Under the pieces are notes generated by a model. It was not told where the DNA came from. It did no database searches and was given only the letters and a program-made list of their open reading frames with translations. DNA of 64,000 nucleotides from an uncultured bacterium (GTDB taxonomy: Bacteria; Myxococcota_A; Polyangia; Polyangiales; Houyiibacteriaceae). The DNA is taken from positions 62,001-126,000 of the forward strand of contig CALJDU010000014.1 in the NCBI GenBank assembly GCA_938024995.1, given 5' to 3'. Below, one piece after another: positions 2,591-30,058 of this stretch; the stretch's first letter is position 1; each line of letters starts with the position of its first letter. The position numbers and the translations under genes were made by a program.

Positions 2591-3598
2591 ATGGGAAAAA
2601 ACGCCAAGCGTGAAGAAGAGATCGTCGCGCGTGAAGTCGAGGTCAGCGACGCCGAGGTGCTCTTGCGCCTGAGCGGTCCGAACAGCGCTCACCTTCGCAC
2701 CATCGCAAAGGAGTTCGGCGTCGCGGCGGGCTTGCGCGGGAACACGATTCACATGCGCGGCCGCGAGTCGGTGGTCGCTGGAATGGAGCGCGTGCTCGCC
2801 GAACTGATCGAGGTCCTCGAAGGCGGAAAGAAGCTGAGCGAGAACGAGATCGCGCGCGCCACGCGAACCCTGCGCGACCATCCCGAGGTACGCCTGCGAG
2901 ACCTCTTCGACGACGTCATCCTCACCACCGCCCAGCGACGGATCATCTCGCCGAAGGGCGTCGCGCAGCAGCGGTACATCCAGTCCATCCGCGAGCACGA
3001 CGTGGTCTTCGGCATCGGCCCCGCCGGAACCGGAAAGACCTACCTCGCGATGGCGATGGCGGTCCGCGCGCTGACGGCGCGTAAGGTAAAGCGCATCATC
3101 CTGACACGCCCCGCGGTCGAAGCCGGTGAGCGCTTGGGCTTTCTGCCGGGCGACCTCGCCGACAAGGTGAACCCGTATCTGCGGCCGCTCTACGACGCGC
3201 TTCACGACATGATGGAGGACGATCAGGTCGCGATGCTCATTCAGCGCGGCACCATCGAGGTCGCCCCGCTCGCCTTCATGCGCGGCCGCACCTTGAGCTC
3301 CGCGTTCGTGGTGCTCGACGAGGCGCAGAACACGACCCCCGCGCAAATGAAGATGTTCCTCACGCGAATCGGCTTCGACTCGAAGGCCGTGATCACGGGC
3401 GACGTGACGCAGACCGACCTCGGGCGTGGTCAGCGGAGCGGTCTGGCCGACGCGCAGTCGCTGCTCAAGAACATCGAGGGGATCGACTTCTGTCGTTTCA
3501 GCGAGAAGGACGTCGTTCGTCACCCGCTCGTCCAGCGCATCGTCCTCGCGTATGATCGTCGATCGGAGAAACGCCGCGCGAGCCGAGAAGAGGAGTAG
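2591..3598 (+). CDS. phoH: PhoH family ATPase (YbeZ type)
   Basis: 335 residues, the usual length for the YbeZ/PhoH family. Residues ~20-75 resemble the KH-like N-terminal domain of the family. The ATPase core has Walker A GPAGTGKT (143-150) and Walker B FVVLDEAQ (239-246), and the family signature TRPAVEAGERLGFLPGD (172-188). The family is cytoplasmic and linked to RNA metabolism; in many bacteria it is co-transcribed with ybeY, the 16S rRNA maturation endonuclease. Here ybeY is not next door: a GHKL ATPase starts 11 bases after the stop. A second PhoH protein with a PIN domain is encoded at 51528. Confidence 0.95.
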   Translation: MGKNAKREEEIVAREVEVSDAEVLLRLSGPNSAHLRTIAKEFGVAAGLRGNTIHMRGRESVVAGMERVLAELIEVLEGGKKLSENEIARATRTLRDHPEVRLRDLFDDVILTTAQRRIISPKGVAQQRYIQSIREHDVVFGIGPAGTGKTYLAMAMAVRALTARKVKRIILTRPAVEAGERLGFLPGDLADKVNPYLRPLYDALHDMMEDDQVAMLIQRGTIEVAPLAFMRGRTLSSAFVVLDEAQNTTPAQMKMFLTRIGFDSKAVITGDVTQTDLGRGQRSGLADAQSLLKNIEGIDFCRFSEKDVVRHPLVQRIVLAYDRRSEKRRASREEE

Positions 3599-3609: not shown

Positions 3610-5238
3610 ATGCCGTATCGGAAGAGGAGCGGGAAGCGCGACGTCAGCGCGCCGCGCGATCAGGGGATCGTCGGCGAGCTGATCGACCAGTTCGCCGACT
3701 CGTTCGCCTTCTACCGAGAGCTCATTCAGAACGCGCTCGACGCCGGCACTGAGCGGATCGACATCAAGCTCGCTTACGACCACGGCACGCTCCGGGTCTC
3801 CGTTCAAGATCACGGCGTCGGGATGACCCAAGAGGTCCTCGAAGATCAGCTCCTCGTGCTCTTCAAGAGCGGCAAGGAGGGGCGCGACGACATGATCGGC
3901 AAGTTCGGGGTCGGGTTCGTCTCGGTCCTCGCGGTCGAGCCGACGCTCGTCAGCGTCCGGACGTCAATCGGCGAAGGTCCCTCGCTCACGCTCGAGCTTC
4001 ACGCGGACCACAGCTACGAGATCTTTGAGAGCGGCGGGACGAAAAAGGCCGGCACCACCGTCACGCTTCACCTCGACCTCGAAGAGGACGCGGTGCCCCG
4101 CTTCGCGAAGGAGAGCCGCGCGGCGATTAAGCGGTGGTGTCGCCACGCCGCGATCCCGATTCACTTCCAGGTGTTCCTCAACCCCGGCGAAGAACCGACG
4201 CGAGAACGTCTCGACGAAGACTTCGCGCTCGACGACGCGTTCCTCTCCCACCAGGAGGTCATCGACGACACGACGATCATTACCGGGCTTGGTCAGACGA
4301 CGTACGGCGGCTTCTATCGCCAGGGGTTGATGCTCTACGAAGAGACCCCGTCGACGACCCACCGCTTCATGTTCAAGGCGAGCGACCGAAGGCTCGAGCA
4401 CACCCTGAGCCGCGACAACGTCAAGCAAGACGCGACGTATTACTCAGTGCTGAAGAAGGTGAACGCGGTCGGTCGACGCCTCGGCCGACTCGCGGTGGAC
4501 GAACTAAAACGAGCCGTTCTCGAAGACCCTGAGCAGCACGCTCGCCTCACGGTCGCGGCGCTCGGGAGCGAGATCGTGGCGCGGGAGCTGATCCCGATGC
4601 GTCTCCTCTCCCGCGAACCCGCCTCGGTCACCCTCGCGGCCTTCGACAAGGTCAAAGATGTTTGGCTCGCGCGGCACGACTCACTTCTCACGGACGCGCT
4701 GACCGAGCGCGGAGCCCTCGTCTTGGACGGGACGTTTTGGAAGAACGAACACGCGCTGACCGTGATCGCGCGAGGCGAGCGCGCGCGCCCGTTCTTCGCG
4801 GAGGAGTCGCTCACGTACGCCGGTGCCGTCGACCTCGACCGCGACGACGAAGCGTTACTTGAGGCGGTCGGTGAGCTCCTGAGCCACACGATTAAGCCGC
4901 CGCGCGGGCTCCACTTCGCCCGCTTCGTCGGCGAGGGTCGCGACGCTTTCATGGTGACCGGCCCGAACATGATCGCCTCCCTCGCGGAGCGAACGCTTCC
5001 GTGGGTGATCGACGCGACCGACGCCAAGCGCTCGCCCTTTGCGGTCTTGCGGCGTCCCCCGATCGCGCTCAACACGCGACACGAAGCGGTCAAAGAAGCG
5101 CGCCGCGTCGCGGAGGACAACGTCCTGCTCGCCGCCGAGGTCCTGTGCCGACTCATCTTCCTTGAGCACGAGGAGCTGACGGAGAAGCGCGAACGACTCT
5201 TGACCGAGCACATGCTCGAGAAGCTGCTCTCCGCATGA
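3610..5238 (+). CDS. GHKL (Hsp90-like) ATPase, first gene of an overlapping pair
   Basis: 542 residues. The N-terminal ~200 residues carry a complete Bergerat ATP-binding fold: N-box FYRELIQNALDAG with catalytic Glu37 and Mg-binding Asn41, G1 box DHGVGM (67-72) and G2 box GKFGVGF (97-103), as in HtpG, MutL and MORC proteins. The N-box phrase is close to that of Hsp90 (ELISNAxDA), but the middle and C-terminal Hsp90 domains are not recognisable. There is no signal or membrane segment. The gene ends in an ATGA overlap with the 1742-residue protein, so the two are almost certainly translated together. An ATP-driven chaperone-like or conformational-switch role is inferred; it could equally belong to a stress or defence complex. 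Confidence 0.85.
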   Translation: MPYRKRSGKRDVSAPRDQGIVGELIDQFADSFAFYRELIQNALDAGTERIDIKLAYDHGTLRVSVQDHGVGMTQEVLEDQLLVLFKSGKEGRDDMIGKFGVGFVSVLAVEPTLVSVRTSIGEGPSLTLELHADHSYEIFESGGTKKAGTTVTLHLDLEEDAVPRFAKESRAAIKRWCRHAAIPIHFQVFLNPGEEPTRERLDEDFALDDAFLSHQEVIDDTTIITGLGQTTYGGFYRQGLMLYEETPSTTHRFMFKASDRRLEHTLSRDNVKQDATYYSVLKKVNAVGRRLGRLAVDELKRAVLEDPEQHARLTVAALGSEIVARELIPMRLLSREPASVTLAAFDKVKDVWLARHDSLLTDALTERGALVLDGTFWKNEHALTVIARGERARPFFAEESLTYAGAVDLDRDDEALLEAVGELLSHTIKPPRGLHFARFVGEGRDAFMVTGPNMIASLAERTLPWVIDATDAKRSPFAVLRRPPIALNTRHEAVKEARRVAEDNVLLAAEVLCRLIFLEHEELTEKRERLLTEHMLEKLLSA

Positions 5239-8200
5239 GCTGGCGCGGACGAAAGGTCGGCAAGGGTCGACTGCGGGTCGACGCGAAACGCGCCGTTCAG
5301 AAGCTCCGCGAATACCAGCTCCCGGATCCAACGCACTGGGCGCTCGAGGTCCTCCGCGCGGCGGTCGCGTTCGGCGCAGAGGCGATCGAGGTGACCGGGG
5401 ATGCGGACGATCTGTATATCGCGTGGCGCGGCGCGGCGCCGGAGCTGGACGATCTGATCGAGACGCTCAACGAGCTCGTCAGCCCGGCCCCCGACGAAGC
5501 GCGACGTGGGTTTAAGCTCCTCGCGACTGGCATCAACACCGCGCTCGGCAAGGCGCGCTACGTCGACGTCTACCGCATCGGCGCGGAGACGGCGCAGCGC
5601 GTTCGCTTCACCCCGCAGCTCCACGCGGTCAGCGACGACAACGAGGGGGAAACGCTCGATGATCTCATCGAAGCCACCGAGGTCGTCGCTCCCCACGAAG
5701 CGATGGGCGAGGGCGTCGTTGTGCATCGTAAGTCCCGCGTGAGCGTCGACGTCATGCGCACGGCCATAGCCTTTGGGGAGCCTCCCGAGCTCCGGCTCGC
5801 GCGTGATCGATGCGCCGACATCCGGGTCCCGCTCCGCGTCGGGAACGCGACGATGCACCGCGCCATCTCACCTTCCGACGTTCTCCGGCTCCCGCTCGGC
5901 GCCAATTGGAACGGCTTCATCGCGCTCCTCGATCCACGCGCCCACCCAGACCGCGAAGGCATCGAGATCGCGTACGCAGAACAAGGCGTCATCCTCGAGC
6001 GCCGATTCTCGCCCAACTACTACGACGGCCCCGCCCCGCCGGTCCGCGTCTTCATCGACGAAGACCAGCTCCCGACCAACGCCTCGCGCTCGCTCGTACG
6101 TGACGATCAGCCGCTCGTACAGCGCGTGAACGAACGGGTGCGCGAACTCTTTCCAGACTTGATCGAGCGCGTCACCAAGGAGCTCTCCGAGCCCGATCGA
6201 CAATGGTCGGAGGTTGACCGAACCCGGCTTCGCGACGGCGCGCTTCATCTCCTCGCTTCCCTCGGTCGTGCGCGTGACGTCGCCTCGAAGCTCGCGGACC
6301 GGGACGACGCATACGGGCCCCTCGCGGCGCTCCCGCTCCTAACGAGCGCACTGGGTGAACCCCTCGCACCTCGCGACTTGAAGGACGCCGCCATCGTTCA
6401 TCGCAAGCGCGATCCCGTCGACGAGGAACTGCGCGCCTGGTTCGAGGGCATCGTATGGGCGCGGCCTGGGGACGAAGGCAGCGTCTTCGCGCGCGCGTCT
6501 GGAATCGTGATCCCGTCCGACCAGCGAATCAAGACCGCCAAGAACGAGCTCAAGGCGCGGCGGCGCTTTCTGCGCCAGCGAACGCGCCCGCTCGTCACGA
6601 ACGCCAAAGGACCGCGATGGGTGTTCCAAGAGGACACGCTCCCGCAAGGGAGCATGATGCGGCAGACCCGCTCTCGCCGGCTCATCCCAGCCGGGCTCCG
6701 CGGCGAGGTCCGCGTGATCGGCGGCAGCGGCGTGTCCCAAATCGACCTCATGCTCGAAGAGCGCGTCCTCGAGACCGTCAAGCTCGAGGGGCTCGTGCGC
6801 TTCCGTGGTCAGATCACGTTTGACGAGCTCCGCCCCGCCCCGGACTACCGCGAAGCCGAACAGAACGTGAAGCTGCGGGAGATGATCCGCGGCGCGAGCT
6901 ACGCCGCGATCGCCGCGCTCGAGGCGACCGTTTCGCGCGGCGACAAGCTCCCGCGTAAATTCATCGAGGAGCTCCCGCGCGTTCTCGCCGCCTGTCTCAC
7001 CAAGAGCGATCTCTCGCTCAAGCGTGTCGCGTCCAGTCCGCTCGCGCGCGTGCCTTGCTTCCGCGTGGTCGACGATCAAGGGGACGCGCGGTTCATCTCG
7101 CACTCCAAGCTGACTGACGACCCGCTGCTCTTCAGCGAACGAAGGGTCTGTCCGCCGGTGGGCGCACGGGTGGTCGTCGGTCAGGCGATCGGAGACGCGA
7201 CATCGTTGCTCTTCCCCAAGCGGACACAAGTTCCGTACGAACCACGCGAGCGCCCACGCGCCACGTTCGCGGAGCGCGGCGCGGTTCAGATGGAGTGGAC
7301 CGAGGGTCCCGTCAACGGCGCCATCGCGTGGTACCGACACGGGCGCGCGACGCGTTCTCCGGTCTACCACTACCACCGCGGGATCCCGCTCGGCCAGTCC
7401 GAGGCGGAGCTCACGGTCCCTGCCGTCGTTCGCATCGAAGACGACCGGCTCGTCCCGGACCCAAACTGGCAGCGCGTGTTGGTTTCGCCCAAGTACGATC
7501 CCCATCGATGGGAGATCGCGCTGGTCAAGGCCTTCATCGCGCACCTGAGCGGCGAAACCATGGCGGGGTTCTCATCACGTGACGCGGACGGCTCGGTCAC
7601 GGACATGCTGATCAAGTGCGTCGCGAACAGCGAACGGGTCCGAGCCGCGCTGACAGAAGACGAGTTCACCGCCTTCATGAACGCGGACCTCCTCACGGAT
7701 GTGGACCGCAACGCCGTCACCCTCGCGCAGTTGCGCGATGACCGATCCGCCTATCCATACTTCCTCACGGAGGACGTCGTCTTCCCCGTCGACGTGAGCG
7801 GGTTCCCCGCGATACGCGCTTACCCCGACACCGTCCGCGCGGTTCAGAAGCTCACCGGTCACGAGCTGAAGAACGGTACGAACCCGTTGCAAGCGAGGGC
7901 GACGCAAGCGAAGCGAAACGAGGCGCTCAAGCAGCATCGACAAAAGCGAGAGGTCGAGCTCCGGCCAGGTCACGCTGTCCACAGCGTTGTCGATCGCGCG
8001 TACGCAAACGGGTTCACCTGGCGAGAGCGGAGCCAGCCGAACGTCGCGAAGATTTACGTCGAAGATCGCTTGATCGGGATGTTCCCGATGGAGCACATCT
8101 CCGTCTCGCTGAACGTGCACCTGAATGACGGAGAGGTGCTCGAGGGGCTCCTCGGGCGCTGGAAGCTTCGCGTCGCGGGGCTGCTCCCGAGCCTCATGAG

Positions 8201-10463
8201 TGACCTCATCTCGGCGGAGATCGCCGGCGATCCAAACGCGCTCATCAACACGCCGAAGGGGCGCGCGTTTCTCGCGACTTGGCTCAAGCTCCCGACCAAG
8301 AAGAAGAAGCACCTCGCCAAGCGAAACGCGATCAAGAACGTCCTCCGGAGCGCGAAGGTGTTCGCGTCGCTGCAGGGTGACCAGGTCTCCATCAAAGACG
8401 CTTCCACCAAGACCCGCGTGAGGTCGGCCCGCTTCCAAGGAGAATGGCTATCGCCCGCGCAAGGAGAACAGACGACCGCGCAGGACCTGCCCATCTTGTT
8501 GCTGCCGATGAGCGACGAGGCCGCGGGGTTCACTGACCTGGTCGATGGAATCGCGGACGGCCCGATCTGTTTTGACTACACCAAGGCTGTGCTCGCGACC
8601 CAAGGGCGCCGACGCGTCGAGCGGGGGCTCGTGGTCGCGCCGACCGTCGACGCCAAGAGCGAAGTCAAGCGATCCATCAAGAGCCTCGCGCTCCCCAGTC
8701 AGCTCCGGCTCTTGGGTGCAGGCGAGATCGCGCTCTCGCGCCACCCTGGCCGCACGGTCCGCTTGTTCGCCGATGGAGTACGCCGAAAACAGTTGATTCA
8801 GTCCGGGGTCAGCCCCTCGGTCGAGGTCGCGCTGGAGTCTCCCTCGCTGGTCCATGAGTTCGCCAAAGGGTCGCTGCCCAAGCGCGCCGAAGAAGCGCTC
8901 GACGCCGTCGGCTATGCGCTGATCCGCGCGCTCTCGGGAGACCTTGAGGCGCTCCCGCAGTGGGCGCGGAACGAGCTGAGACGGGTCGCGATGATCGACA
9001 TGAACTTCAACCTCGACGGTTTCATGGAGATGCCGCTCTTCGAGACCACCGACGGGCGCGATCTATCCTTCGAAGACCTAATCGCGGAAGAGTCGGGACG
9101 AGGCGAGCTCGTCATCACGACGGACGAAAAAGAAAGGCGGACGCTGAGCGACGATCGCCCCGTGATTCGATTGCATCCAGATGAGCTCCTCTACATCGAA
9201 GGTACGTTCACGATCATCGACGCGCAGGCCGCGTTCAAGGTCGAAGCCGAGCGCGCCCACAACATGGCGCGCCCGGCGCGCACCGGGTTCGGCCTGAGCC
9301 TCGACGGGAGGCAACCCGCCAGCGCGCTGCTGCACCAAGTGGCGCTCTCGGGAGACGGCGTCTCCGCGCCGCGCGGTCGGGTTGGCCTCCTCAAGCCACA
9401 CGCGAGCCTCTTGGCCGGCATCACGATCCTGAGAGACATGAAGCCACTGGGCATGACGCAGGTGAACGGACTCCCGGTCGTGGCCACGGTGGACTACGCG
9501 GAGCTGACCCCCAACGAAACGTTCAGCGCTCCGGTCCAAGACGAGGCGCTGGGAGCGGTGCGCGCGGCGGTGGTCGCCGCCCGAGAGCAGATGCTGAAGA
9601 GCATCGTGACGAAGCCACCAAAGAACGCTTTGGTGTCGCTTCGGATTGATACCCCCGACTCATCGGGCTGGGTCTGGCTCGACCCCGCGCTCGCAGGCCG
9701 CGTGACCGTTCTCGACATCCGAGGCGCGTTCGAGCTCCCGCGTGAGACGACCTTCCGTTCGCTCGCGGGCGACCTGATCCGCTCGGGCGTCGGGAGGAAC
9801 ACCACGAGCTTCGTCCGTGACGCGCACCGTAAACTCGCGAAGGCGCTCGCCGATCAGCTGGCAGAAGACAAGGTCGATGACGCGCGACGCGACGAAGCGC
9901 TGGCGCACCTGTTGATCGCGGCGCGCACCCGCATCGTCACCGAGTCGGAGCTGCCGGGCGCCCTGATGATCGACTGCTTCTCCCCCACGCCCCGCTCGCT
10001 CCGCGACGCGCTCGAACTGCTCCGCGGTCGCGCGCGGGTGGCCATCCTGAAAGACGCATGCCGCGTGAGCGGAGTTGTTGACGACCAGAGCCAGTGCTTT
10101 CAGGTGATCCTCAACGAACTGGGTTCACGCGCGCTCGGCGGTGAAACGGTCACCGTAGAGACCTCATCACCCGGCGCATCCGGAGTCGCGACGCGATTGA
10201 CCCGCGAACTCGCGGCGCTGGGGATCTCGCACGAGGTCACGGTCGGGCGTCACGAAGCGCTGCTCGACTTCGCCAAAAACCAGCTCACCGTCTCGCTCAT
10301 GCACCAAGCGACAAACATCATCTCGGTCGATGACGCGAGCCCGCTCTTCGGGACCCTCCTGCTCAGCGCCGTCTCGACGCTCAATCGAAATCTCGACTCC
10401 GTCACCGATTCGCACGAGCGCAGCGCTCTCCTAGCGGTTCTTGAGAGCTGGCCGAGTACCTGA
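5235..10463 (+). CDS. Giant protein (1742 aa) with a degenerate GHKL-like N-terminus
   Basis: 1742 residues, starting inside the stop of the GHKL gene (ATGA). I recognise no named family across its length. Residues 35-48 (WALEVLRAAVAFGA) align by eye with the N-box of the neighbour, keeping the Glu but replacing the Mg-binding Asn by Ala42; the G1 Asp is replaced by Trp64 (AWRGAA), and a G2-like stretch near 92-104 keeps only part of its glycines. A second GHKL-like feature, VRVFIDEDQLPTNASRSLV around residue 275, resembles the loop after the ATPase domain in Hsp90-like proteins. The rest alternates beta-rich and helical regions with a basic segment (TKKKKHLAKR) near 1020. No signal peptide, no membrane helix. 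Probably a large cytoplasmic scaffold or partner of the active ATPase. Confidence 0.85.
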   Translation: MSWRGRKVGKGRLRVDAKRAVQKLREYQLPDPTHWALEVLRAAVAFGAEAIEVTGDADDLYIAWRGAAPELDDLIETLNELVSPAPDEARRGFKLLATGINTALGKARYVDVYRIGAETAQRVRFTPQLHAVSDDNEGETLDDLIEATEVVAPHEAMGEGVVVHRKSRVSVDVMRTAIAFGEPPELRLARDRCADIRVPLRVGNATMHRAISPSDVLRLPLGANWNGFIALLDPRAHPDREGIEIAYAEQGVILERRFSPNYYDGPAPPVRVFIDEDQLPTNASRSLVRDDQPLVQRVNERVRELFPDLIERVTKELSEPDRQWSEVDRTRLRDGALHLLASLGRARDVASKLADRDDAYGPLAALPLLTSALGEPLAPRDLKDAAIVHRKRDPVDEELRAWFEGIVWARPGDEGSVFARASGIVIPSDQRIKTAKNELKARRRFLRQRTRPLVTNAKGPRWVFQEDTLPQGSMMRQTRSRRLIPAGLRGEVRVIGGSGVSQIDLMLEERVLETVKLEGLVRFRGQITFDELRPAPDYREAEQNVKLREMIRGASYAAIAALEATVSRGDKLPRKFIEELPRVLAACLTKSDLSLKRVASSPLARVPCFRVVDDQGDARFISHSKLTDDPLLFSERRVCPPVGARVVVGQAIGDATSLLFPKRTQVPYEPRERPRATFAERGAVQMEWTEGPVNGAIAWYRHGRATRSPVYHYHRGIPLGQSEAELTVPAVVRIEDDRLVPDPNWQRVLVSPKYDPHRWEIALVKAFIAHLSGETMAGFSSRDADGSVTDMLIKCVANSERVRAALTEDEFTAFMNADLLTDVDRNAVTLAQLRDDRSAYPYFLTEDVVFPVDVSGFPAIRAYPDTVRAVQKLTGHELKNGTNPLQARATQAKRNEALKQHRQKREVELRPGHAVHSVVDRAYANGFTWRERSQPNVAKIYVEDRLIGMFPMEHISVSLNVHLNDGEVLEGLLGRWKLRVAGLLPSLMSDLISAEIAGDPNALINTPKGRAFLATWLKLPTKKKKHLAKRNAIKNVLRSAKVFASLQGDQVSIKDASTKTRVRSARFQGEWLSPAQGEQTTAQDLPILLLPMSDEAAGFTDLVDGIADGPICFDYTKAVLATQGRRRVERGLVVAPTVDAKSEVKRSIKSLALPSQLRLLGAGEIALSRHPGRTVRLFADGVRRKQLIQSGVSPSVEVALESPSLVHEFAKGSLPKRAEEALDAVGYALIRALSGDLEALPQWARNELRRVAMIDMNFNLDGFMEMPLFETTDGRDLSFEDLIAEESGRGELVITTDEKERRTLSDDRPVIRLHPDELLYIEGTFTIIDAQAAFKVEAERAHNMARPARTGFGLSLDGRQPASALLHQVALSGDGVSAPRGRVGLLKPHASLLAGITILRDMKPLGMTQVNGLPVVATVDYAELTPNETFSAPVQDEALGAVRAAVVAAREQMLKSIVTKPPKNALVSLRIDTPDSSGWVWLDPALAGRVTVLDIRGAFELPRETTFRSLAGDLIRSGVGRNTTSFVRDAHRKLAKALADQLAEDKVDDARRDEALAHLLIAARTRIVTESELPGALMIDCFSPTPRSLRDALELLRGRARVAILKDACRVSGVVDDQSQCFQVILNELGSRALGGETVTVETSSPGASGVATRLTRELAALGISHEVTVGRHEALLDFAKNQLTVSLMHQATNIISVDDASPLFGTLLLSAVSTLNRNLDSVTDSHERSALLAVLESWPST

Positions 10464-10501: not shown

Positions 10502-10540
10502 CGCCTCGCTCGGGTCAAACCGAGCCACCTACTTGCTTTT

Positions 10541-13891: not shown

Positions 13892-13991
13892 CCACCGTCC
13901 TGGTCACCCTCGAGTGGTGCGGGGAGGTGAAATTGAGCCCCTACGCAGGTCACGATCGGTGGAGCGCGCCCTTTGCCGAGCGCGCTGCTAT

Positions 13992-14021
13992 GTTTGCGAC
14001 GTGACTGTTTGCGATGTGACT
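13992..14021 (+). promoter_or_regulatory. Tandem 15-bp direct repeat upstream of prkA
   Basis: Two abutting 15-base units (13992-14006 and 14007-14021), GTTTGCGACGTGACT and GTTTGCGATGTGACT, differ at a single base. They end 65 bases before the prkA start, a position suited to a regulator binding as a head-to-tail dimer. Function is inferred from position only. Confidence 0.4.
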
Positions 14022-14086
14022 CCAACGCCACTCTTCTCTTCTCGCGTCAACGAACGGCGTATGCCGACGACTCACGAGGTGATGTC

Positions 14087-16135
<2,049 letters not shown>

Positions 16136-16137
16136 CC

Positions 16138-17343
16138 ATGCGCGGGCCTTCGGCACGCGTCTTCGTCATCGTTGCGCTCGCCCTCGCGACCACGGCGATG
16201 ACGTGGACGTCAGCGGACGCGCTCGGCGACGTAAACTGGCGGCGTCAGTACACGCGCGCCCGAACGCGAGAGGCGACCGCCTTCCACGGCCTCTTGGTGT
16301 GCCGGGTCCGCGCGGAACGAGGTCGCTCCTACGACGGAGCCGGCGTCCTGCCGGGTCGCGTGCCGGTCTTTCCTGGCGTCTCTGTTCGTTTCGCCCGCCC
16401 TCGTCTCCACGCGCCTGAGCTCATGACGCGAATCGCGGTCGGCGCGCGGGTCGTCGAGATGGGCGGCGCGCAAGATCGCTACGAGGAGTACGTCGCGCTC
16501 GGTGGGCTCCGGCTGACCGTCGGGACAGAGCTGTCCGTGTCGGTCCGCGATCAAGACATCGCGAGCGATGACATGCTCGGCCGCATGACGCTTCGTTACG
16601 AGGGCAGGTTTCCGATGACCGCTGAGGCCTCGCCGGCCTCGATCTCGTGTCGTGGTCAGGAACAACGCCCGCTCCTCCGCTCACAGCGCGGCGCGCTTCG
16701 CCGATTGGGTCGCGCCCTTGCGCGCCTCCCCGAGCCGGAGCTCGACGACACCGATCCGGAGTTCGACGGCACCTTTCTCTCGCGACTCAAGACCGTGACG
16801 AGGTCGCTCGCTCCGCTTCGGCAGCTTCTTGGGGACGACGCGGAAGAGCTGAGCGACGCGATCACGACGACGACCACAAGAGAGCAGCGGTTCCGCGCCT
16901 CGGTTCGCGAGCGGCTCGCGAGCGGCGGCTCCGCGTTCGAGATGACCCGTCATGAGTACATCGACACCATGACGACACCGGCCGATCGCTCGTTCGAGAG
17001 TCACCGCGAAGCGCATGAGGAGCAGATTCGGCTCCGGGAGCGGTTCCGCTATCGGCGCGCGGTGCCGCTGCGGGTCTTCCGGGTGAACGTGAAAAACGCA
17101 GAGCGCCGCCGCGCCCCTCGGGCCCGGCTCTATAAAGACAGCGAAGCCATCGAAGGGAGAACCGAGGTGTTCCTCTTGGGCGGGCGTCGGCCGAGGCGCT
17201 TACGCCCGAACGCTCGACTCCCGCGCGGAGACGCAGAGCTGATGGTCGCCTACTACGGGTCCGAGGCGCTGCCCGATGTCCTCCGCCTCGTCTACCGGCA
17301 AGGGGCCGTCTACCTTCGGCTTCGCGGCGCTACGGCACCGTAA
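16138..17343 (+). CDS. Exported protein with a C2-like domain
   Basis: 401 residues, starting 2 bases after prkA and therefore likely in its operon. The N-terminus VFVIVALALATTAMTWTSADA reads as a cleavable signal peptide. Residues ~60-165 look like a C2-type beta-sandwich, most clearly in LSVSVRDQDIASDDMLGRM, which matches the calcium/lipid-binding loop pattern of C2 domains (V-x-D-x-D-x6-D-x-L-G). The remainder is Arg-rich and helical, with the conserved-looking piece SFESHREAHEEQIRLRERF. It overlaps the convergent GH10-like gene by 14 bases. No closer family known to me. Confidence 0.7.
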   Translation: MRGPSARVFVIVALALATTAMTWTSADALGDVNWRRQYTRARTREATAFHGLLVCRVRAERGRSYDGAGVLPGRVPVFPGVSVRFARPRLHAPELMTRIAVGARVVEMGGAQDRYEEYVALGGLRLTVGTELSVSVRDQDIASDDMLGRMTLRYEGRFPMTAEASPASISCRGQEQRPLLRSQRGALRRLGRALARLPEPELDDTDPEFDGTFLSRLKTVTRSLAPLRQLLGDDAEELSDAITTTTTREQRFRASVRERLASGGSAFEMTRHEYIDTMTTPADRSFESHREAHEEQIRLRERFRYRRAVPLRVFRVNVKNAERRRAPRARLYKDSEAIEGRTEVFLLGGRRPRRLRPNARLPRGDAELMVAYYGSEALPDVLRLVYRQGAVYLRLRGATAP

Positions 17344-18988: not shown

Positions 18989-21796
18989 TTACTTGTACCA
19001 GCCCTCAGGCGGCTTGGCGGTGTCCGGCTCCTTGGCGAAGCGCTTGCACTGCATGACCCACTTGTCCCGCTCGATGCGGTCCGGGAACGAGTTGATGTGC
19101 TCCGCGACCCAGATCACGTCCGCCTTGTTGAAGTCGGCGACCTGCCAGAAGTAGTAGACGCCCAGGCTGTTGAGCACGCCTTCAAGCACCGGTCCGATGC
19201 CGTAGACTCGCTTGAGGTCATCCTTGACGCCGTAACGAGCGGTCTTGAAGAGGTACGGCTGACCTTCCGGCTTCGCGGGACGTACCGGCTTGGCGGTCGC
19301 CTTCTTGAGGAGCGCCTCGAGCTCGCGGATGCGGATCTGGAGCTTCTCGATTTGACCCGCGCGGTTGCGCCAGTCGGTCAGGTCGCGCGCCATCGTCGCG
19401 AGCTTGCGTGAGCAATCGTCACACTCGGCCTTGCTGTCGCTCGCCAGCTTGCGCCAGCGCTTCAGCTCGGTGTCGTTGTCGCCAGCCAGCTTCCGCCAGC
19501 GCGCGAGCTCCGCTTCGTTGTCGCCCGCGCTCTTTTGGAACGCGCCAAAGTCGAGGCGCAACTTGTCGCGCTCCGAGGTGAGGGCGCGCAGGCGACCCAG
19601 AGCGTCGTCGAGCTCCTTGCCGCGACCCATCGCGACGCGGTACTTCGCGTTCAGCTCATCCCAGTCGGTGCTCTTCGCCTCGAACTTCGCTTGGATGGTC
19701 TCAAGGCGACCCTTGAGCTCGTCGATCTGCTTTCCGCGGGTGTTCCACTCGCCGGTCTTGGCGGTCAGTCGCGCGGTCAGCGCGTCCGTCTTCTCGGTGT
19801 CGTTCTTGGCCTTCTCGAGCTCTCGCTTGAGCGCTTCGTGCGCCTTGCGCAGCTCGTTCAGGTCGTCCGTGCGTGACTTGTAGCTCCCCTTGAGATCGGA
19901 GAACTCCTTGTTGAGCTGGTCCAGCTGACCCACGCGACGCTGCATCGACGCCAGCTGTCCCTCGAGGTCACGGATCCGGTCGGTCTTGCCCTTCGCGTCT
20001 TCGCGCGCCGCCAAGAGCGACTGATCCCGATCAGCGACCTCGTGCTCGAGCTTGACGCGGTTGCCGTTCCAGCCATCGCGCTCCTCGGAGTACCGCGCGC
20101 GAAGCTCAGCAAGCGCCCGCTCAAGATCCTTGACGCGATCACCGGCGCCCTTCGCGCTGTTGAGGTCCGCCCGAAGCGTCCCGACGAGTCCCTGCAGCTC
20201 GACGCCGCTCTTCTTCTCGTTGTCGAGGTCTCCGCGGAGAACCAGGATGAGCCGCTCGTGCTCGGTGCACTCGTTGTTCTTCCGGCCGAGCTCGTCGCGC
20301 AGCCGCTTGAGCTCCGCTTCGTGCTTCTTCGCGTCCGCCTTCGCGCCGTCAAAGTTCGACAGGAGGGTGGTGTACTGGACCTTGTAGTCCGCGCCGCCCT
20401 TCTTCTCGCGCTCAAGCTCGCCCTCGAGCCCCTCGATGCGTCGCTGGTAGCCCGCGCTTTGCTTACGCGCGTCGTCGAGCTGCTTCTGCAGGTCCTTGAA
20501 CTTCAGCTCCCACGAACCGCCGCTCTTCTTCGCCGCGTCCAGCTCCTTGCGGAGGTCGTTGAACTTCAGCTCCCACGAACCGCCGCTCTTCTTCGCCGCG
20601 TCCAGTTCCTTCTGCAGGTCCTTGAACTTCAGCTCCCACGAACCGCCGCTCTTCTTCGCTGCGTCGAGCTCCTTCTTGGCGTCGTTGAACTTCAGCTCCC
20701 ACGAGCCGCCGCTCTTCTTCGCCGCGTCCAGGTCCTTGCGGAGGTCGTTGAACTTCAGCTCCCATGAGCCACCGCTCTGCTTGGCGCCTTCGAGCTCCTT
20801 CTGCGCATCCTTGAAACGCAGATCCCAGTCGGCGTTCGCCTTCTTGGCGTTCGCGAGCTCGGCCCGGAGCTTCGTGAGCTCGCCGTCCAGCTTGTCGTAG
20901 TTGTCGCTGAGCGCGCTGCGCTCCTTTTCGAGGCGACCGTTGGTCGTCGCGAGGTCGTCGCGCTCCCCGGTCATCTTGTCGAGGTCGGCGCGCAGCCCGC
21001 TGAGCTGACCGTCGAGGTCCGTCTTCGACGAGAGCAAGCCCTGGATCTCGCTGGTGCGGCTGTTGAGCGCGGAGTCGTGCTCGGCCTTGAGCGCGTCAAG
21101 CTCGGCTCGGAGGCGCGCGGCCTCGTCCTTCCCTGACGCGACGTCACCTTCAAGCGAGGCCTTGATGCCGTTCGCGGCGCTGAGGTCGGCCATCAACACG
21201 GTGATCCGCTCGTTCAGACCATCGGTCGCGCTGCTGTCGGCCTCGGCCGCCGCGAGCCTCTTCTTCAGCTCCACGATCTCGGCGTCGAGCTTGCCGATCT
21301 TGCCGCGGGCGTCGTCTCGCTCTTGGGTTCGACTCGCGAGCGCGCTCGACTTGTCGTTGAGCGCCTTGGTCTTCTCGCGAACGAGCGCGGCCTTGGCCTG
21401 CGCGTCCTTCTCGAGCGTCTCCTTCTCCTTATCGAGACTCGTGACCTTGCCCTCGAGCTCACGGATCCGCGAGCGGAGGCCGTCCAGGCTCGAGACCGCG
21501 TCGTCGCGCTCCTTGCCGAGCGCGGTCTTCGCGTCGAGCAAGCCAACGATACGACCGTCTAGTTCGTCGCGTTCGTCGCGGACTTCATCACGCTCTGCGC
21601 GAAGCGTGTCGCGCTCACCGAGGAAGCCGTCACGCTCACCTTCGACCACGCGCAGACGACTTCGCCAGTCGTCGATCATGTCTTTGTACTTCGCCCACAG
21701 CCACCAGCCGAGCGCGAGTCCAATCGCAAACGCAAACAAGAGACACAGCAGAATCTTCCCAATGAGGAAGCTCCAACCTGAAACCAAGAACACCAT
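18989..21796 (-). CDS. Membrane-anchored long coiled-coil protein with C-terminal helix-hairpin-helix domain
   Basis: 935 residues. One membrane helix at residues ~7-35 (IGKILLCLLFAFAIGLALGWWLW) is followed by Lys/Arg, which predicts a cytoplasmic C-terminal body. Residues ~45-840 are nearly unbroken coiled coil with Leu/Lys/Asp/Glu heptads; five near-identical 21-residue units (SGGSWELKF plus NDLRKELDAAKK) lie at about 330-430. The last ~70 residues (DDLKRVYGIGPVLEGVLNSLGV then INSFPDRIERDKWVMQCKRFA) match the helix-hairpin-helix module found at the end of many such proteins and in ribosomal/NADH dehydrogenase-related paralogues. The BON/OmpA gene lies 3 bases upstream in the same operon. 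A spacer or scaffold at the inner membrane is inferred. Confidence 0.85.
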   Translation of the reverse strand: MVFLVSGWSFLIGKILLCLLFAFAIGLALGWWLWAKYKDMIDDWRSRLRVVEGERDGFLGERDTLRAERDEVRDERDELDGRIVGLLDAKTALGKERDDAVSSLDGLRSRIRELEGKVTSLDKEKETLEKDAQAKAALVREKTKALNDKSSALASRTQERDDARGKIGKLDAEIVELKKRLAAAEADSSATDGLNERITVLMADLSAANGIKASLEGDVASGKDEAARLRAELDALKAEHDSALNSRTSEIQGLLSSKTDLDGQLSGLRADLDKMTGERDDLATTNGRLEKERSALSDNYDKLDGELTKLRAELANAKKANADWDLRFKDAQKELEGAKQSGGSWELKFNDLRKDLDAAKKSGGSWELKFNDAKKELDAAKKSGGSWELKFKDLQKELDAAKKSGGSWELKFNDLRKELDAAKKSGGSWELKFKDLQKQLDDARKQSAGYQRRIEGLEGELEREKKGGADYKVQYTTLLSNFDGAKADAKKHEAELKRLRDELGRKNNECTEHERLILVLRGDLDNEKKSGVELQGLVGTLRADLNSAKGAGDRVKDLERALAELRARYSEERDGWNGNRVKLEHEVADRDQSLLAAREDAKGKTDRIRDLEGQLASMQRRVGQLDQLNKEFSDLKGSYKSRTDDLNELRKAHEALKRELEKAKNDTEKTDALTARLTAKTGEWNTRGKQIDELKGRLETIQAKFEAKSTDWDELNAKYRVAMGRGKELDDALGRLRALTSERDKLRLDFGAFQKSAGDNEAELARWRKLAGDNDTELKRWRKLASDSKAECDDCSRKLATMARDLTDWRNRAGQIEKLQIRIRELEALLKKATAKPVRPAKPEGQPYLFKTARYGVKDDLKRVYGIGPVLEGVLNSLGVYYFWQVADFNKADVIWVAEHINSFPDRIERDKWVMQCKRFAKEPDTAKPPEGWYK
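20501..20815 (-). repeat. Five 63-bp tandem repeats inside the coiled-coil gene
   Basis: Copies begin at 20501, 20564, 20627, 20690 and 20753, each 63 bases and coding for 21 residues (three heptads). The first four are nearly identical at the DNA level, the fifth is diverged and a degenerate sixth follows to 20878. Because 63 is a multiple of three and of seven codons, gain or loss of a copy keeps both frame and heptad phase. Confidence 0.92.
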
Positions 21797-21799
21797 TTA

Positions 21800-22873
21800 T
21801 CAGTTCCTCTCGATGTGCATTTCGATGCGGCGGTTTTGCTGCCGCCCTTGTGCGGTCGCGTTGTTTCCGATCGGACGATCTGGACCAAAGCCTTCGGTGC
21901 CCAAACGTTCGGCACCGATCTCAAGTCCAGAGAGCGCGTCTCGGACCGCGTCAGCCCGTTGTTGGCTGAGCGTCATGTTTGCGTCGTGGTCACCGCGGCT
22001 GTCCGTGTGACCTTCAATCTTGATCGTGCCGGGGCAGTCCCGAGCGACGTCGGCGAGCTGCGACAAGAGGCGGCGACTCGCGGGGCTGATCACCGCGCTG
22101 GAGACCCGGAAGCGGATCTGCGTGCGATCAAGCAGCGACTTGAACCGTTCGTCGCACGCGTCCGCGGCTTCGGAGACGATGAGCCCGAGCGGCCCAGCGG
22201 TGTAGCGATCCGGCATCCCGCTCTGCGCACCGGCGACCGTCGGCTGGTCAGCCTCGTGCACCTCGCCGCGGAAAGAAAGCGCGCCCTCTTCGATCGCGAA
22301 CTGACCGTGCATGAGCGGAGCGAGACCCGTGAGGCCCTTGTCGAGAACCATGCGGAAGTTCCCGATGGCAGGTCCATCGTTGCTGACGATGCGGAGCTCG
22401 TCAGTGACGTTCGCGGCGCCGAAGCGATCGCCCGCCATGCTCACGAGGTAGTCACGGGTGCTCTCGTCAGGGACCTCTCCAGTCAACCGAACCGCGCCCT
22501 CCGCGTCCTTGAACCCGACCACGTCGTAGTAGCGCGCCGCGACGGGCGGAGGGGGAGGCGGAGCCGGGCTCGCGACGTTCAGCGCGTCGGCGTGGACATC
22601 GGTAACACCGTAGGCGCCCATCACGGCAGCGATCGCGCGCTCCTTGTCGGCGTCCGTGCCGACGAGCGTTCCCGACAGCACAGCCTCTTGGCCTTCCATC
22701 GTGAGCTCTACGCCGTTGGTGTCTACGTTGGCTTCACCCAGCGCAGCGACGGCGTTCTCCCTCACTCCAGACGGGATCTGCGCATCGGCTGTGCAGCCCC
22801 GCATCCGCAGGCAGAAGAAACAGAGCACGCCGAGTACGACGAGCATAATCAGCCACTTAATCGAATCGGTCAT
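21800..22873 (-). CDS. BON- and OmpA-domain envelope protein
   Basis: 357 residues from ATG 22873; AAGGA just upstream favours this start over the longer frame at 22912. An uncleaved-looking N-terminal membrane segment (WLIMLVVLGVLCFFCLRM) is followed by a BON-like domain (residues ~35-95, VELTMEGQEAVLSGTL), a short Pro run, a second BON-like region (~110-165) and a C-terminal OmpA peptidoglycan-binding domain with IKIEGHTDSRGDHDANMTLSQQRA. The arrangement resembles mycobacterial ArfA (OmpATb). It would be anchored in the inner membrane and hold peptidoglycan. The coiled-coil gene starts 3 bases after its stop. Confidence 0.9.
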   Translation of the reverse strand: MTDSIKWLIMLVVLGVLCFFCLRMRGCTADAQIPSGVRENAVAALGEANVDTNGVELTMEGQEAVLSGTLVGTDADKERAIAAVMGAYGVTDVHADALNVASPAPPPPPPVAARYYDVVGFKDAEGAVRLTGEVPDESTRDYLVSMAGDRFGAANVTDELRIVSNDGPAIGNFRMVLDKGLTGLAPLMHGQFAIEEGALSFRGEVHEADQPTVAGAQSGMPDRYTAGPLGLIVSEAADACDERFKSLLDRTQIRFRVSSAVISPASRRLLSQLADVARDCPGTIKIEGHTDSRGDHDANMTLSQQRADAVRDALSGLEIGAERLGTEGFGPDRPIGNNATAQGRQQNRRIEMHIERN

Positions 22874-23181
22874 CGGTTCCTTCGTTCCGCTTGTGATGCG
22901 GATGACGTTCAATCGGCGAACGCGGAGGGGGTTGAACGGGAGTGTTCAGAGGGTCGTGCAGGAGGGTTGTTTCCAAACTACGTGCCAACCTAGATCCCAG
23001 CCTTTGGTGTGACTTTTGTGTCGGCGTCTGTGGTGGGGAGCCTACGATCGTCGCTCAAGACCGACAGCAAAAATCCACCACACACAACAACTGGGTATCC
23101 ACGTGAAGTTTCGCTCCCACTGTCAGACGACTCAAGAAGCTCTGATCAGCGCGGGGGCGGAAAGCGGTCTACACTGACCGG
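22874..23181. other. Divergent intergenic region
   Basis: About 308 bases without a gene between the OmpA/BON operon (leftward) and the DUF444 gene (rightward). Base composition is visibly less GC-rich than the flanks. An inverted repeat TGTGGTGG (23029-23036) and CCACCACA (23075-23082) is present; no clear promoter hexamers could be fixed. Both operons must be read from here. Confidence 0.5.
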
Positions 23182-24294: not shown

Positions 24295-25827
24295 ATGTCG
24301 CGTTTCGCGCTTAAGACCGCGCTCCCGGGTTACCTCCGTGACCAACAGAAACAGATCGAGAAGTACGCCGCGGAGTTCGGGCTCGACTTCTTCCCGGTCA
24401 TCTTCGAGATCCTCAGCTATGACCAAATGAACGAGGTCGCGGCGTACGGTGGCTTCCCGACCCGTTACCCCCACTGGCGTTTCGGGATGGAGTACGAGCA
24501 GCTCAGCAAGAGCCATGAGTACGGTCTCTCGAAGATCTACGAGATGGTCATCAACAACAATCCGTCGATCGCGTACCTCCTCGAGGGGAACAGCATGGTC
24601 GACCAGAAGCTGGTGATGGCGCACGTGCTCGGCCACGTCGACTTCTTCAAAAACAACTTCGCGTTTCAGATCACCGACCAAGGCAAAGACCAAAAGTCGG
24701 ACCTCCCGATCCGCAAGTGGGTCGACACGATGGCGAACCACGGGGCGATCGTGCGGCGCTGGGCGAACCGGGTCGGCATCGAGAAGATCGAGGCGTTCAT
24801 CGACTCGTGTTTGCGTCTCGAGAACCTGATCGATCCCCAGTCACCGTTCCTGCCCACGCCGGCGCGCCCGGACGGTCTCCTCGACGAAAAGGAGTCACAG
24901 ACCGACGAGGTCTCGCTCTTACGCGTCGACAAGGACTACATGGAGTCCTTCATCAACCCGCAGGAGTTCGTCGACTCCCAGCGGAAGAAGATGGCAGAAG
25001 AGAAGGAGCGCGAGAAGGCGCTCGACCCGACCCGCGACGTGCTCGGCTTCCTGATCCGGAACGCGCCGCTCGAGGCGTGGGAGCGTGACGTCCTCGAGGT
25101 GATCCGCCGCGAGGCCTACTACTTCCTGCCCCAGATGCAGACGAAGATCATGAACGAGGGCTGGGCGAGCTACTGGCACAGTCGCTTGATGACCGAGCGC
25201 GTCTGCGACGGAACCGAGATCATCGACTACGCGGACCGCAACGCGGGCGTGATGCAGACGTCGCCGCAGCGGCTCAACCCCTACAAGCTCGGCGTCGAGC
25301 TCTACCGTCACATCATGGAGCGCTGGGATCGCGGGCGCTTCGGCAAAGAGTGGGACGACTGCGACGATTGGGACGCGCGGCGCCACTGGGATCAGCGCAC
25401 CGGCCTTGGGCGCGAAAAGATCTTCGAGGTGCGCAAGCTCTACACCGACGTGACGTTCATCGATGAGTTCCTCACGCCAGAATTCGTGATGGAGCAGAAG
25501 ATGTACTCGTTCGGCTTCAACAACCGGAACGACCGCTACGAGATCGAGTCCCGCCAGTTCAAAGAGGTCAAGGGCAAGCTCTTGGCGCAGCTCGCGAACG
25601 CCGGGAACCCGTTCATCTACGTCGTCGAAGCGAACCACCACAACCGCGGCGAGCTGGTCCTCCAACACGAGCACCACGGGATCGACCTACGGCTCGACTG
25701 GGCGCGCGAGGTTCTCGAAGCGCTCGCTCGGGTGTGGCGACGTCCGGTCGAGCTCCACACCATCGTCGAAGACAAGCCGACGCTCATCCGCTACGACGGA
25801 AGCGATCACGTTCGCAAGCCGCTCTAG
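24295..25827 (+). CDS. spoVR: SpoVR family protein
   Basis: 510 residues, the normal family length, with the conserved phrases [42 protein letters not shown] split over residues ~60-105, MADQ-like [19 protein letters not shown], and [13 protein letters not shown]. The His-rich segment recalls a metal site. In Bacillus it is needed for the spore cortex; in proteobacteria (YcgB) it is a stationary-phase protein. It forms a two-gene operon with DUF444 and belongs functionally with PrkA. Confidence 0.96.
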
Positions 25828-27126: not shown

Positions 27127-27211
27127 CCAGGCTCTCGATACGCTGACGCCTCCTACAATTCGGGTGCACGTTTTTCGTTGCGACGGATATCGGGGGGAGC
27201 AAGCATGCCCA

Positions 27212-30058
27212 ATGCGTACAACTCTCTGCCTTGCTCTCCTTTTCGCGGTCGCCTGCGGGGGTGACGACGATGTCTCGCTCGATGGCGGCGAGGACTCGGG
27301 GACAGACGCGGGGCTCTACGATGGTGGGGTCGACGCCGAAGAAGACGCTGGCGACCTGGACGCGGATCAAGACACCGGCGACGCGGACCTCGACGCGAGC
27401 GACGCGGATCCGGACGCCGACGATGCCGGAGACGCCAGCGTGGATGGCGCGACTGACGCCGATCCAGACGCGGGTGACGTGATGGATCCCGACGCGATGA
27501 CGGACGCCGATCCGGACGCGGGCGACGCGGATCCCGACGCGATGACCGACACGGGTACGCCGGACACTGGCTGCGTGGACGAGGACGGCGACGGGACCTG
27601 CGCGACGGACGACTGTGACGACACCGACCCGCGCATCTTCCCCGGCGTCCCCGAGCGCTGCGACGGCGTCGACCAAGACTGTGACGGCCTCATCGACGAA
27701 GAGCTGCCCACGCGCACCTTCTACGAAGACATCGACGGCGATGGCTACGGAGACGACACCACGAGCGTAGAGGCGTGCGCGCGACCAGACGATCACGTGC
27801 TCCGCGGCGGTGACTGCGACGATGACAGCGCGCTCGCGAGCCCGAGCGTTCCCGAGATCTGCGACGCGATGGACAACGACTGCGACGGGCTCACCGACGA
27901 AGGCGTCCCGACCGAGGAGTACTTCCTGGACGAAGACGGTGACGGCTACGGCAGCAGCACGTCGATCGACGCCTGCACCCGTCCGCGCGGCTACGCCGAC
28001 CGCGACGGCGACTGTGACGACAGCGCGCCCTTGGTTCACCCCGCGGCCGCCGAGCTCTGCGACATGGTGGACAACGACTGCGACACCCGGAGCGACGAGA
28101 GCCTGCTCGCCTACCCGTGGTACCTCGACGCCGATGGCGATGGCTATGGCGACCCGAGCGCGCCGAGCGTCGAGTCATGCGCCCCGCAAGCCGGCCGCAC
28201 GCTTCGCTTGAGCGATTGCGACGACAGCGACGCCTCGGTCCGGCCCGGCGCCGTGGAGCTTTGCGATCGCGTCGACTCCGACTGCAGCACCGGCAGCGGC
28301 GTCGCGTTCGACGAGGACAACGACGGTGACGGTCACGCGCTCCCGAGCGCAGCGTGCACCGGAGGGTTCCCCAAAGACGACTGCGACGACACGACCTCCG
28401 ACCGAACGCCGGGCCGCGCCGAGCGCTGCGACGGCCGCGACAACGATTGCGACGAGATCATCGACGAAGAGCCGATGGGGAGCGGGAGCGTCTATTACGA
28501 AGATCGCGACGGTGACGGGTACGGCGATTCCGCGAGCGCGGTCGAGCTCTGCTCCGGCGCGGTGCCCGCGGGCTACGTGCGACGTGATGGCGACTGCGAC
28601 GACGACGCGAGCGCGGTCTACCCCGGACGCGAAGAGGTCTGCAACGGCATCGACGACGGCTGCAGCGGCGTCGTCGATGACGTGCCCTCGTTCCGCGCGC
28701 CTCCCACCGACAACCCGGTCGGCGTCTGCAACACCCAGAAGCGCTGCATCGGCGGGAGCTGGCAGAACGCCTACGCAATGATCCCAGGCTACGAAGCCGT
28801 CGAGAGCTCCTGCGATGAGCGAGACAACGACTGTGACGATGAGACCGACGAGTCCCTCCTGGTCGAGCGCTACATCGACCGCGATGGCGACGGCTACGGA
28901 GACGATCCGCTCTTCTCGTGCACCCGCTCCGTCGTGAACGTCTGCCCGAGCGCGACCGGCTTCGCGACCGTCCTCGGCGATGTCGATGATGGCGACGCCA
29001 GCGTGAACCCTGGACAGGCGGAGACCTGCAATGGCGTTGACACCGATTCCGACGGCGCGATCGACGAAGGCGACCTGTGCGGTCCCGGCTCCCTCTGCGC
29101 GGCGGGGACCTGCACGCCTTGTAGCTTCCCCCCTGCCATCATGCCGACCGCGGTCACCGGGACAAACGTCTGGTGCCCCGGCGCGCTGACCATCGCGGTC
29201 CCCAGCACGACGGTCATCTTGCCCGACGCGGTCCTCGCGATCGGCGCCGGCAACCGGCTCTTGTTCGACGCTGGCGCGAGCCTCGTGGTCCGCGGCGCGC
29301 TCGAGACCTACGGCACCGCCAGCAGCCCGGTGCGCTTCGACAGCTCGCTCCCGATCCCGACCAACAACAGCTGGAGCGGGATCCGGATCGAGAACACGAC
29401 AGGTGGTCGCGTGAACCTCAACCGCGTGGACGTCCGTCACGCCTCCGGACCGCTCACGCCGACGTGCTGCAGCGGCGCCGCCAGCCGCGTCGCCGACTCG
29501 CTCTTCCGCGACAACGGGCAGGTCTTCGGGAACTACTCCAGCGGACGGATGCAGATCGTGCGAACGCGTTTCGAGGCGAACACCGGGGTCTGCCGCGCGT
29601 ACGAACTGTTCCGAGACTGCGACTTCATCGACAACACCGGGTCACGCGTCTTCGGAGCCGCCACCGTTCGCGGCGGCGAAGTGCGCGGCAACGCGGTCGT
29701 CATGAACAGCGGGAGCGGCAACACCAACATGTGCGACGTCTTGGTCGTCGACAACGACCTGCTCGTCACCTCCAGCCGAGACGGCATCACCGGGCAGCGC
29801 TGCACCTTCGCGGACAACCGCGGACCGCTCACCGGAGGCTCGCGAATCTCGCAATCGAACATTTGTCGCAACGGCGGCGAAGATGTCCGCATCAACAACG
29901 CCACCCATCGCGACTACCGTGAGAACTACTGGTGCGAGACGGACAGCGCAGCGATCGCGGGCCGGATTCATGATGTCAACGACGACCCGCTTCTCGGGCG
30001 CGCGGACTACGAGCCCTTCTTGATGTCGCCCGCGCCCGACGCGCCGGCGATTCCCTGA
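27212..30058 (+). CDS. MopE-repeat (putative metal-binding motif) lipoprotein
   Basis: 948 residues from ATG 27212. The signal MRTTLCLALLFAVACGGDDD has lipobox VAC and an Asp run, then ~100 residues of Asp/Ala-rich tether. Residues ~120-640 hold about eight MopE-type units, each with an EF-hand-like DxDGDGYGD, DCDDxDxxxxPG and ExCDGxDNDCDGxxDE; the type protein is the copper-binding MopE of Methylococcus, but in myxobacteria the units are widespread and probably bind calcium or give rigidity. The C-terminal ~300 residues (VDVRHASGPL, CDFIDNTGS and similar) look like a right-handed beta-helix. Surface location is inferred. Confidence 0.9.
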   Translation: MRTTLCLALLFAVACGGDDDVSLDGGEDSGTDAGLYDGGVDAEEDAGDLDADQDTGDADLDASDADPDADDAGDASVDGATDADPDAGDVMDPDAMTDADPDAGDADPDAMTDTGTPDTGCVDEDGDGTCATDDCDDTDPRIFPGVPERCDGVDQDCDGLIDEELPTRTFYEDIDGDGYGDDTTSVEACARPDDHVLRGGDCDDDSALASPSVPEICDAMDNDCDGLTDEGVPTEEYFLDEDGDGYGSSTSIDACTRPRGYADRDGDCDDSAPLVHPAAAELCDMVDNDCDTRSDESLLAYPWYLDADGDGYGDPSAPSVESCAPQAGRTLRLSDCDDSDASVRPGAVELCDRVDSDCSTGSGVAFDEDNDGDGHALPSAACTGGFPKDDCDDTTSDRTPGRAERCDGRDNDCDEIIDEEPMGSGSVYYEDRDGDGYGDSASAVELCSGAVPAGYVRRDGDCDDDASAVYPGREEVCNGIDDGCSGVVDDVPSFRAPPTDNPVGVCNTQKRCIGGSWQNAYAMIPGYEAVESSCDERDNDCDDETDESLLVERYIDRDGDGYGDDPLFSCTRSVVNVCPSATGFATVLGDVDDGDASVNPGQAETCNGVDTDSDGAIDEGDLCGPGSLCAAGTCTPCSFPPAIMPTAVTGTNVWCPGALTIAVPSTTVILPDAVLAIGAGNRLLFDAGASLVVRGALETYGTASSPVRFDSSLPIPTNNSWSGIRIENTTGGRVNLNRVDVRHASGPLTPTCCSGAASRVADSLFRDNGQVFGNYSSGRMQIVRTRFEANTGVCRAYELFRDCDFIDNTGSRVFGAATVRGGEVRGNAVVMNSGSGNTNMCDVLVVDNDLLVTSSRDGITGQRCTFADNRGPLTGGSRISQSNICRNGGEDVRINNATHRDYRENYWCETDSAAIAGRIHDVNDDPLLGRADYEPFLMSPAPDAPAIP

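Follow-up and report, generated by a model that had tools for sequence, protein, structure and literature searches.

The window, a stretch of 64,000 nucleotides on contig 14 of a 6.8-Mb assembly (G000) from a member of the myxobacterial phylum, carries two overlapping genes whose products probably form an asymmetric Hsp90-like remodeling machine, with a small ATPase powering a giant partner whose own ATP site is dead. The giant combines one N-domain with six middle-domain (M) units, compared with the single N-M-C arrangement of Hsp90. The homology of both proteins to Hsp90, the repeats, the loss of the ATP site, the single origin of the giants, and the linkage and overlap of the two genes are established. 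HtpG pairs two identical protomers, and in all characterized Hsp90s known to us both protomers of the dimer are ATP-competent and each has a single middle domain. The open-licence literature that we searched yielded no published description of such an active/dead Hsp90 pair. The features of the locus are as follows.

3610..5238, plus strand: small Hsp90/HtpG-like ATPase, 542 aa (Pfam, NCBIfam, and HtpG profile alignment)
3610..4263, plus strand: ATPase N-domain, Bergerat fold, with E37, N41, D44, DxGxGM at 67-72, and G97/G100/G102 (100% in 63 ATPases)
4264..4929, plus strand: ATPase M domain with the Hsp90 catalytic-loop motif HTLSRD (R268, 100%; homologous to the giant's repeats)
4930..5238, plus strand: C-terminal segment of the ATPase, resembling the HtpG C-domain, with the LNxxHPxV motif (last part of the full-length HtpG alignment)
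5235..5238, plus strand: ATGA start/stop overlap, 4 nt (exact 4-nt overlap in 75/102 pairs)
5235..10463, plus strand: giant pseudo-Hsp90, 1742 aa (hhalign blocks, AlphaFold, Foldseek, repeat HMM)
5235..5939, plus strand: degenerate Bergerat-fold N-domain of the giant, aa 1-235 (98.2% to ATPase N by hhalign; AlphaFold, Foldseek)
5940..6689, plus strand: middle-domain repeat U1, aa 236-485, LPTNASRS loop kept (hhalign to ATPase M, 94.1%; unit HMM, E=1e-19)
6690..7319, plus strand: middle-domain repeat U2, aa 486-695 (hhalign blocks, repeat HMM)
7320..7994, plus strand: middle-domain repeat U3, aa 696-920 (hhalign blocks, repeat HMM)
7995..8684, plus strand: middle-domain repeat U4, aa 921-1150 (hhalign blocks, AlphaFold, repeat HMM)
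8685..9350, plus strand: middle-domain repeat U5, aa 1151-1372 (hhalign blocks, AlphaFold, repeat HMM)
9351..10154, plus strand: middle-domain repeat U6, aa 1373-1640 (hhalign to U2, 97.5%; unit HMM, E=0.01; AlphaFold strand pattern)
10155..10463, plus strand: giant C-terminal segment, aa 1641-1742 (hhalign to ATPase C; GRP94 match)

The first-pass annotation had described the two open reading frames and their ATGA overlap at 5235-5238, which we confirm and label as putative translational coupling. A phoH-like gene at 2591-3598 ends 11 bp before the ATPase start and possibly shares its transcript; phoH is not among the conserved neighbor families of other pair loci. A tRNA-Phe gene lies downstream of the giant, at 10540.

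By its sequence, the 542-aa protein is a small and divergent relative of Hsp90/HtpG, homologous over its full length, whose ATP site is intact. The active-looking motifs noted earlier (Glu37, Asn41, Asp67-x-Gly69-x-Gly71-Met72, and Gly97...Gly100-x-Gly102-Phe103) are, together with Arg268 of the middle domain, invariant in the 63 homologous ATPases. Pfam and NCBIfam cover just the ATP-binding part of the protein (Pfam HATPase_c_3, 6.8e-11); PF00183 gives no match, the SACS model stays below its cut-off (26.4 versus 32.8), and the curated HSP90 models NF003555 and NF010683 score 60.6 and 51.5 bits against cut-offs of 371 and 455. We assign the protein to the Hsp90s over its full length because a profile of 53 homologues aligned with HtpG residues 12-610 (E=5.4e-19) and all 60 PDB matches shown for this profile were Hsp90s; the putative C-terminal dimerization domain is included in this profile alignment. 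The ATPase shares with the HtpG/PRK14083 HSP90 family the N-M-C order, the Bergerat ATP site, and the catalytic-loop arginine of the M domain, but it differs from HtpG in its length of 542 aa, its scores far below the curated cut-offs, and its pairing with a dead giant of 2 to 7 M domains. No protein of the window's genome exceeds the cut-off of the HSP90 Pfam model, and one other HSP90-family protein, of the PRK14083 type (625 aa), is encoded on contig 43.

The giant has no match in Pfam, NCBIfam, or PADLOC. The first-pass annotation had aligned its first 110 residues by eye with the GHKL fold, and this homology was borne out and extends further: the giant N-terminal profile matched the ATPase profile over 275 columns, that is, the N-domain and the first M unit (hhalign, 99.5%, E=1.7e-22), and an HMM built from giant N termini only recovered nearly all partner ATPases in register, with E-values of about 1e-6 to 1e-23. 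At the ATP-site columns the window's giant keeps Glu38 and has lost the rest as reported before, with Asn replaced by Ala42, the G1 Asp by Trp64, and the G2 Gly by Ala97. The same losses recur across 79 giants (Ala in place of Asn in 85% and of the G2 Gly in 92%, and Phe, Trp, or Tyr in place of the G1 Asp in most), and the degeneracy is therefore a fixed trait of the family; the position of the catalytic Glu is retained in 94%. The Hsp90 catalytic-loop motif T-N-A-S-R-S is kept at aa 281-286 of the window's giant, and in long giants most of its positions are conserved to at least 90%.

The degenerate GHKL N terminus of the earlier account thus stands, and what that account missed are the six tandem Hsp90-type middle domains behind it, of about 200 to 250 aa each. 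We cut the giant into an N block, six repeat blocks, and a C block and compared block with block by hhalign, with reversed sequences as controls, all of which remained below 1%. The N block matched ATPase N as its sole partner. The six repeat blocks matched each other at 45.9 to 98.7%, and against ATPase M four of them scored 61 to 94% and the others 6% and 18%. Combined into one profile, 67 repeat units matched residues 225-406 of the ATPase profile (96.2%, E=2.4e-9); with the repeat profile alone, HtpG in the PDB was found at E=5.1, ranked behind unrelated chains. U6 is the most diverged unit and is possibly followed by a partial seventh. For the C block, hhalign gave 63% against ATPase C block-wise and 46% in a second comparison (reversed controls, 0.1%), the GRP94 C-domain was matched at E=1.1, and the motif LN..HP.V is common to the C-terminal segments of giant and ATPase; this evidence is suggestive of a probable Hsp90-like C-domain, the part by which the chains are proposed to dimerize. 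In relatives, the repeat HMM detected 2 to 7 copies per giant, from about 2 in most giants of 700 to 950 aa up to 7 in those of 1830 to 2030 aa. Copy number followed giant length with r=0.87, including loci outside the set used to build the HMM, which under-detects units in one diverged group of 1000 to 1300 aa. Giant length is largely set by repeat copy number.

Structure prediction points in the same direction. AlphaFold models of aa 1-720 (pLDDT 85.4) and aa 921-1742 (pLDDT 89.0) are locally confident. In Foldseek, the top 50 PDB matches of aa 1-720 were all Hsp90, TRAP1, GRP94, or HtpG (best E=7.7e-14), and those of aa 921-1742 were mostly Hsp90, with an Hsp90 middle-C fragment as the best (E=2.3e-4). 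Whole-chain TM-scores were low, at 0.3 to 0.4 and 0.1 to 0.3, respectively, which we attribute to the domains being arranged differently. For the N+M region, the best structural match is TRAP1, the mitochondrial Hsp90, an ATP-competent homodimer; the giant differs from it in having no ATP-site residues. We do not retain the sacsin-like or MORC-type analogy drawn in the first-pass annotation, as the pair is closest to Hsp90/HtpG and the giant consists of one N-domain and an array of M domains. Sacsin, a proposed chaperone, resembles the giant in being built from repeated Hsp90-like parts, among them N-like and partially M-like domains (PMC9880540). However, its repeat is the entire N+M unit, present three times and with nucleotide pockets that are conserved, and it also has ubiquitin-like, DnaJ, and HEPN domains (PMC9880540, PMC3710099), whereas the giant has a single dead N-domain, M-only repeats, and no Pfam match to DnaJ or HEPN, and the ATP site belongs to another protein. 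MORC- and MutL-type GHKL ATPases share the combination of GHKL and S5-fold modules. We rejected this assignment: Foldseek ranks Hsp90s first and MORC as just a later, minor match, and Pfam finds no MORC- or MutL-specific domains, including the CW and coiled-coil domains of MORC.

How tightly are the two genes linked? Giant homologues occur in 54/284 genomes of the phylum and in 53/184 genomes of the window's order, and the ATPase census (51/269 genomes at E<1e-60) returned nearly the same genomes. Among the 71 Myxococcota loci with a giant (L031-L101 set), 68 have the ATPase or its cut-off end next to it, counting L070, where the ATPase is just a weak C-terminal match. The three exceptions are L050 (a short contig), L077 (a contig edge), and L059. 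Giants are thus almost never found without the ATPase, and the conserved active/inactive pair proposed earlier is strongly supported. Both checks named in the first-pass annotation, on the predicted fold of the N terminus and on giants lacking the ATPase, thus came out in its favor. Across 102 ATPase-giant pairs, 75 have an exact ATGA, GTGA, or TTGA overlap. Several giants can accompany one ATPase, with three in L049 and L066 and two in L056 and L057; L049 exemplifies short giants, of 745 to 860 aa. Giant open reading frames of 2000 to 2750 aa were considered as ATPase-giant fusions and rejected, since the open frame simply reads on upstream of the giant and the ATPase is a separate overlapping frame; an apparent fusion in L133 was left out because it spans unknown bases.

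The giants have a single origin in the tree, with 109/109 in one clade (support 0.997). Tree distances of ATPases and giants correlate (r=0.82; highest value in permutations, 0.10), a correlation that shared descent or plain co-inheritance alone could produce. A search of named genomes with the ATPase alignment as the query found the pair in Myxococcota, including Sorangium cellulosum and Plesiocystis pacifica. It is also present in metagenome-assembled genomes labeled Elusimicrobia, Eremiobacterota, and UBP9, labels that may be wrong, as may that of a Woesearchaeota genome with three alternating ATPase-giant pairs (L173, 2205-16796).

Some loci outside the window's order add a conserved coiled-coil protein, an unnamed protein of ~350 aa, and an AAA+ ATPase, none of which has a Pfam name except for a weak AAA match. 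This companion operon adjoins the ATPase in L155 (3890-9638), L120 (1299-6699), and L158 (484-4252), and all three companions occur with the pair in five loci (L120, L125, L155, L158, and L160). The coiled-coil companion is present in 31 of the 256 phylum genomes examined; nearly all of these also turned up in the census of ATPases, and neither the window's genome nor any other of its order is among them. A search for the AAA+ companion in 58 near relatives gave no match. Its occurrence in other lineages is consistent with a role in protein remodeling but is no proof of one. In L070 (4733-5983), a 416-aa open reading frame fuses a member of the coiled-coil family with a C-terminal stretch resembling the ATPase, and a giant follows; this looks like a locus that has lost the N-terminal part of the ATPase.

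By profile, structure, and phylogeny evidence, the giant is a degenerate paralogue of its partner. It arose once, in our reading by duplication within the small ATPase family of its partner; ATP binding was then lost, the N-domain of an Hsp90 protomer was kept, as probably was its C-domain, and the middle domain between them was multiplied 2 to 7 times, to six copies here. The small protein would be the sole ATP-driven half of the machine. By analogy with Hsp90, we infer that both chains assemble into a heteromer, probably via Hsp90-type contacts, and that the pair would open and close as the small chain binds and hydrolyzes ATP. The middle domain is the main client-contact domain in Hsp90, and the array in the giant could hold one large client or several together. 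Multiple giants per ATPase might then be interchangeable client modules. With somewhat less assurance than for the machine as such, we favor a previously undescribed class of Hsp90, in which one protomer is small and live and powers another that is dead and bears an expandable array of 2 to 7 client-binding M domains, sometimes with several interchangeable giants and a dedicated AAA+/coiled-coil operon. If so, the live half, the dead half, and the multiplied middle domain would separate Hsp90 functions genetically, which bears on whether the halves of an Hsp90 must be equivalent, on how one half senses the use of ATP in the other, and on the role of the middle domain toward clients. The proposal also offers a testable hypothesis for a widespread family of ~700- to 2000-aa proteins that is unnamed in the domain libraries used.

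Alternatively, the ATPase could form a standard Hsp90-like homodimer, with the giant as a dedicated co-chaperone or scaffold that docks without replacing a protomer, in the way of Hsp90 adaptor or activator proteins. Some family ATPases have no giant (L141, L146, L150, and L157), and the ATPase may therefore act alone or as a homodimer. Giant-free ATPases in L150, L157, and L170 keep the companion operon beside them, which likewise argues that the ATPase can function without a giant, and the C-domain homology of the giant is weak. Yet the giant is an Hsp90 paralogue with an N-domain and the M catalytic-loop motif, which favors protomer-type contacts, and the exact gene overlap is conserved; we regard the co-chaperone explanation as unlikely. 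A role in anti-phage defense or conflict, with a large effector under the control of the GHKL ATPase and in the manner of other GHKL-containing defense systems (MzaB, TmtA, and MORC-like), would fit the patchy presence in the phylum (54/284 genomes) and the tandem, diversified giants of L049, L056, L057, and L066. The PADLOC TmtA and MzaB models do match the ATPase weakly in its ATP-binding region; across the anti-phage GHKL models of PADLOC, however, no full-length match was obtained, and the giant had none. No library used revealed an effector or nuclease domain in the giant, plasmid records gave no match (P0002 and shorter giant queries), nor did phages (shorter giant query), viral contigs gave just weak ATPase-domain matches, and the conserved neighbors are the coiled-coil and AAA+ genes and not defense genes. 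Because effector domains, plasmid or phage matches, and defense-gene neighbors are all missing, a defense function is improbable. That the giant is a decaying relic, an Hsp90 fold without any role, would agree with its lost ATP site and the low sequence identity between giants but is hardly credible, given that dozens of genomes have long intact frames, that N-terminal residues are strongly conserved, that the ATPase overlap is retained, and that the giants go back to a single ancient origin.

Further downstream, the window contains a PrkA kinase gene followed by a 401-aa open reading frame without a Pfam match (13973-17343), a 935-aa coiled-coil-like open reading frame adjoining an OmpA-BON protein (18992-22912), and SpoVR (24295-25827). 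A 964-aa open reading frame at 27164-30058 contains seven MopE-type putative metal-binding motifs.
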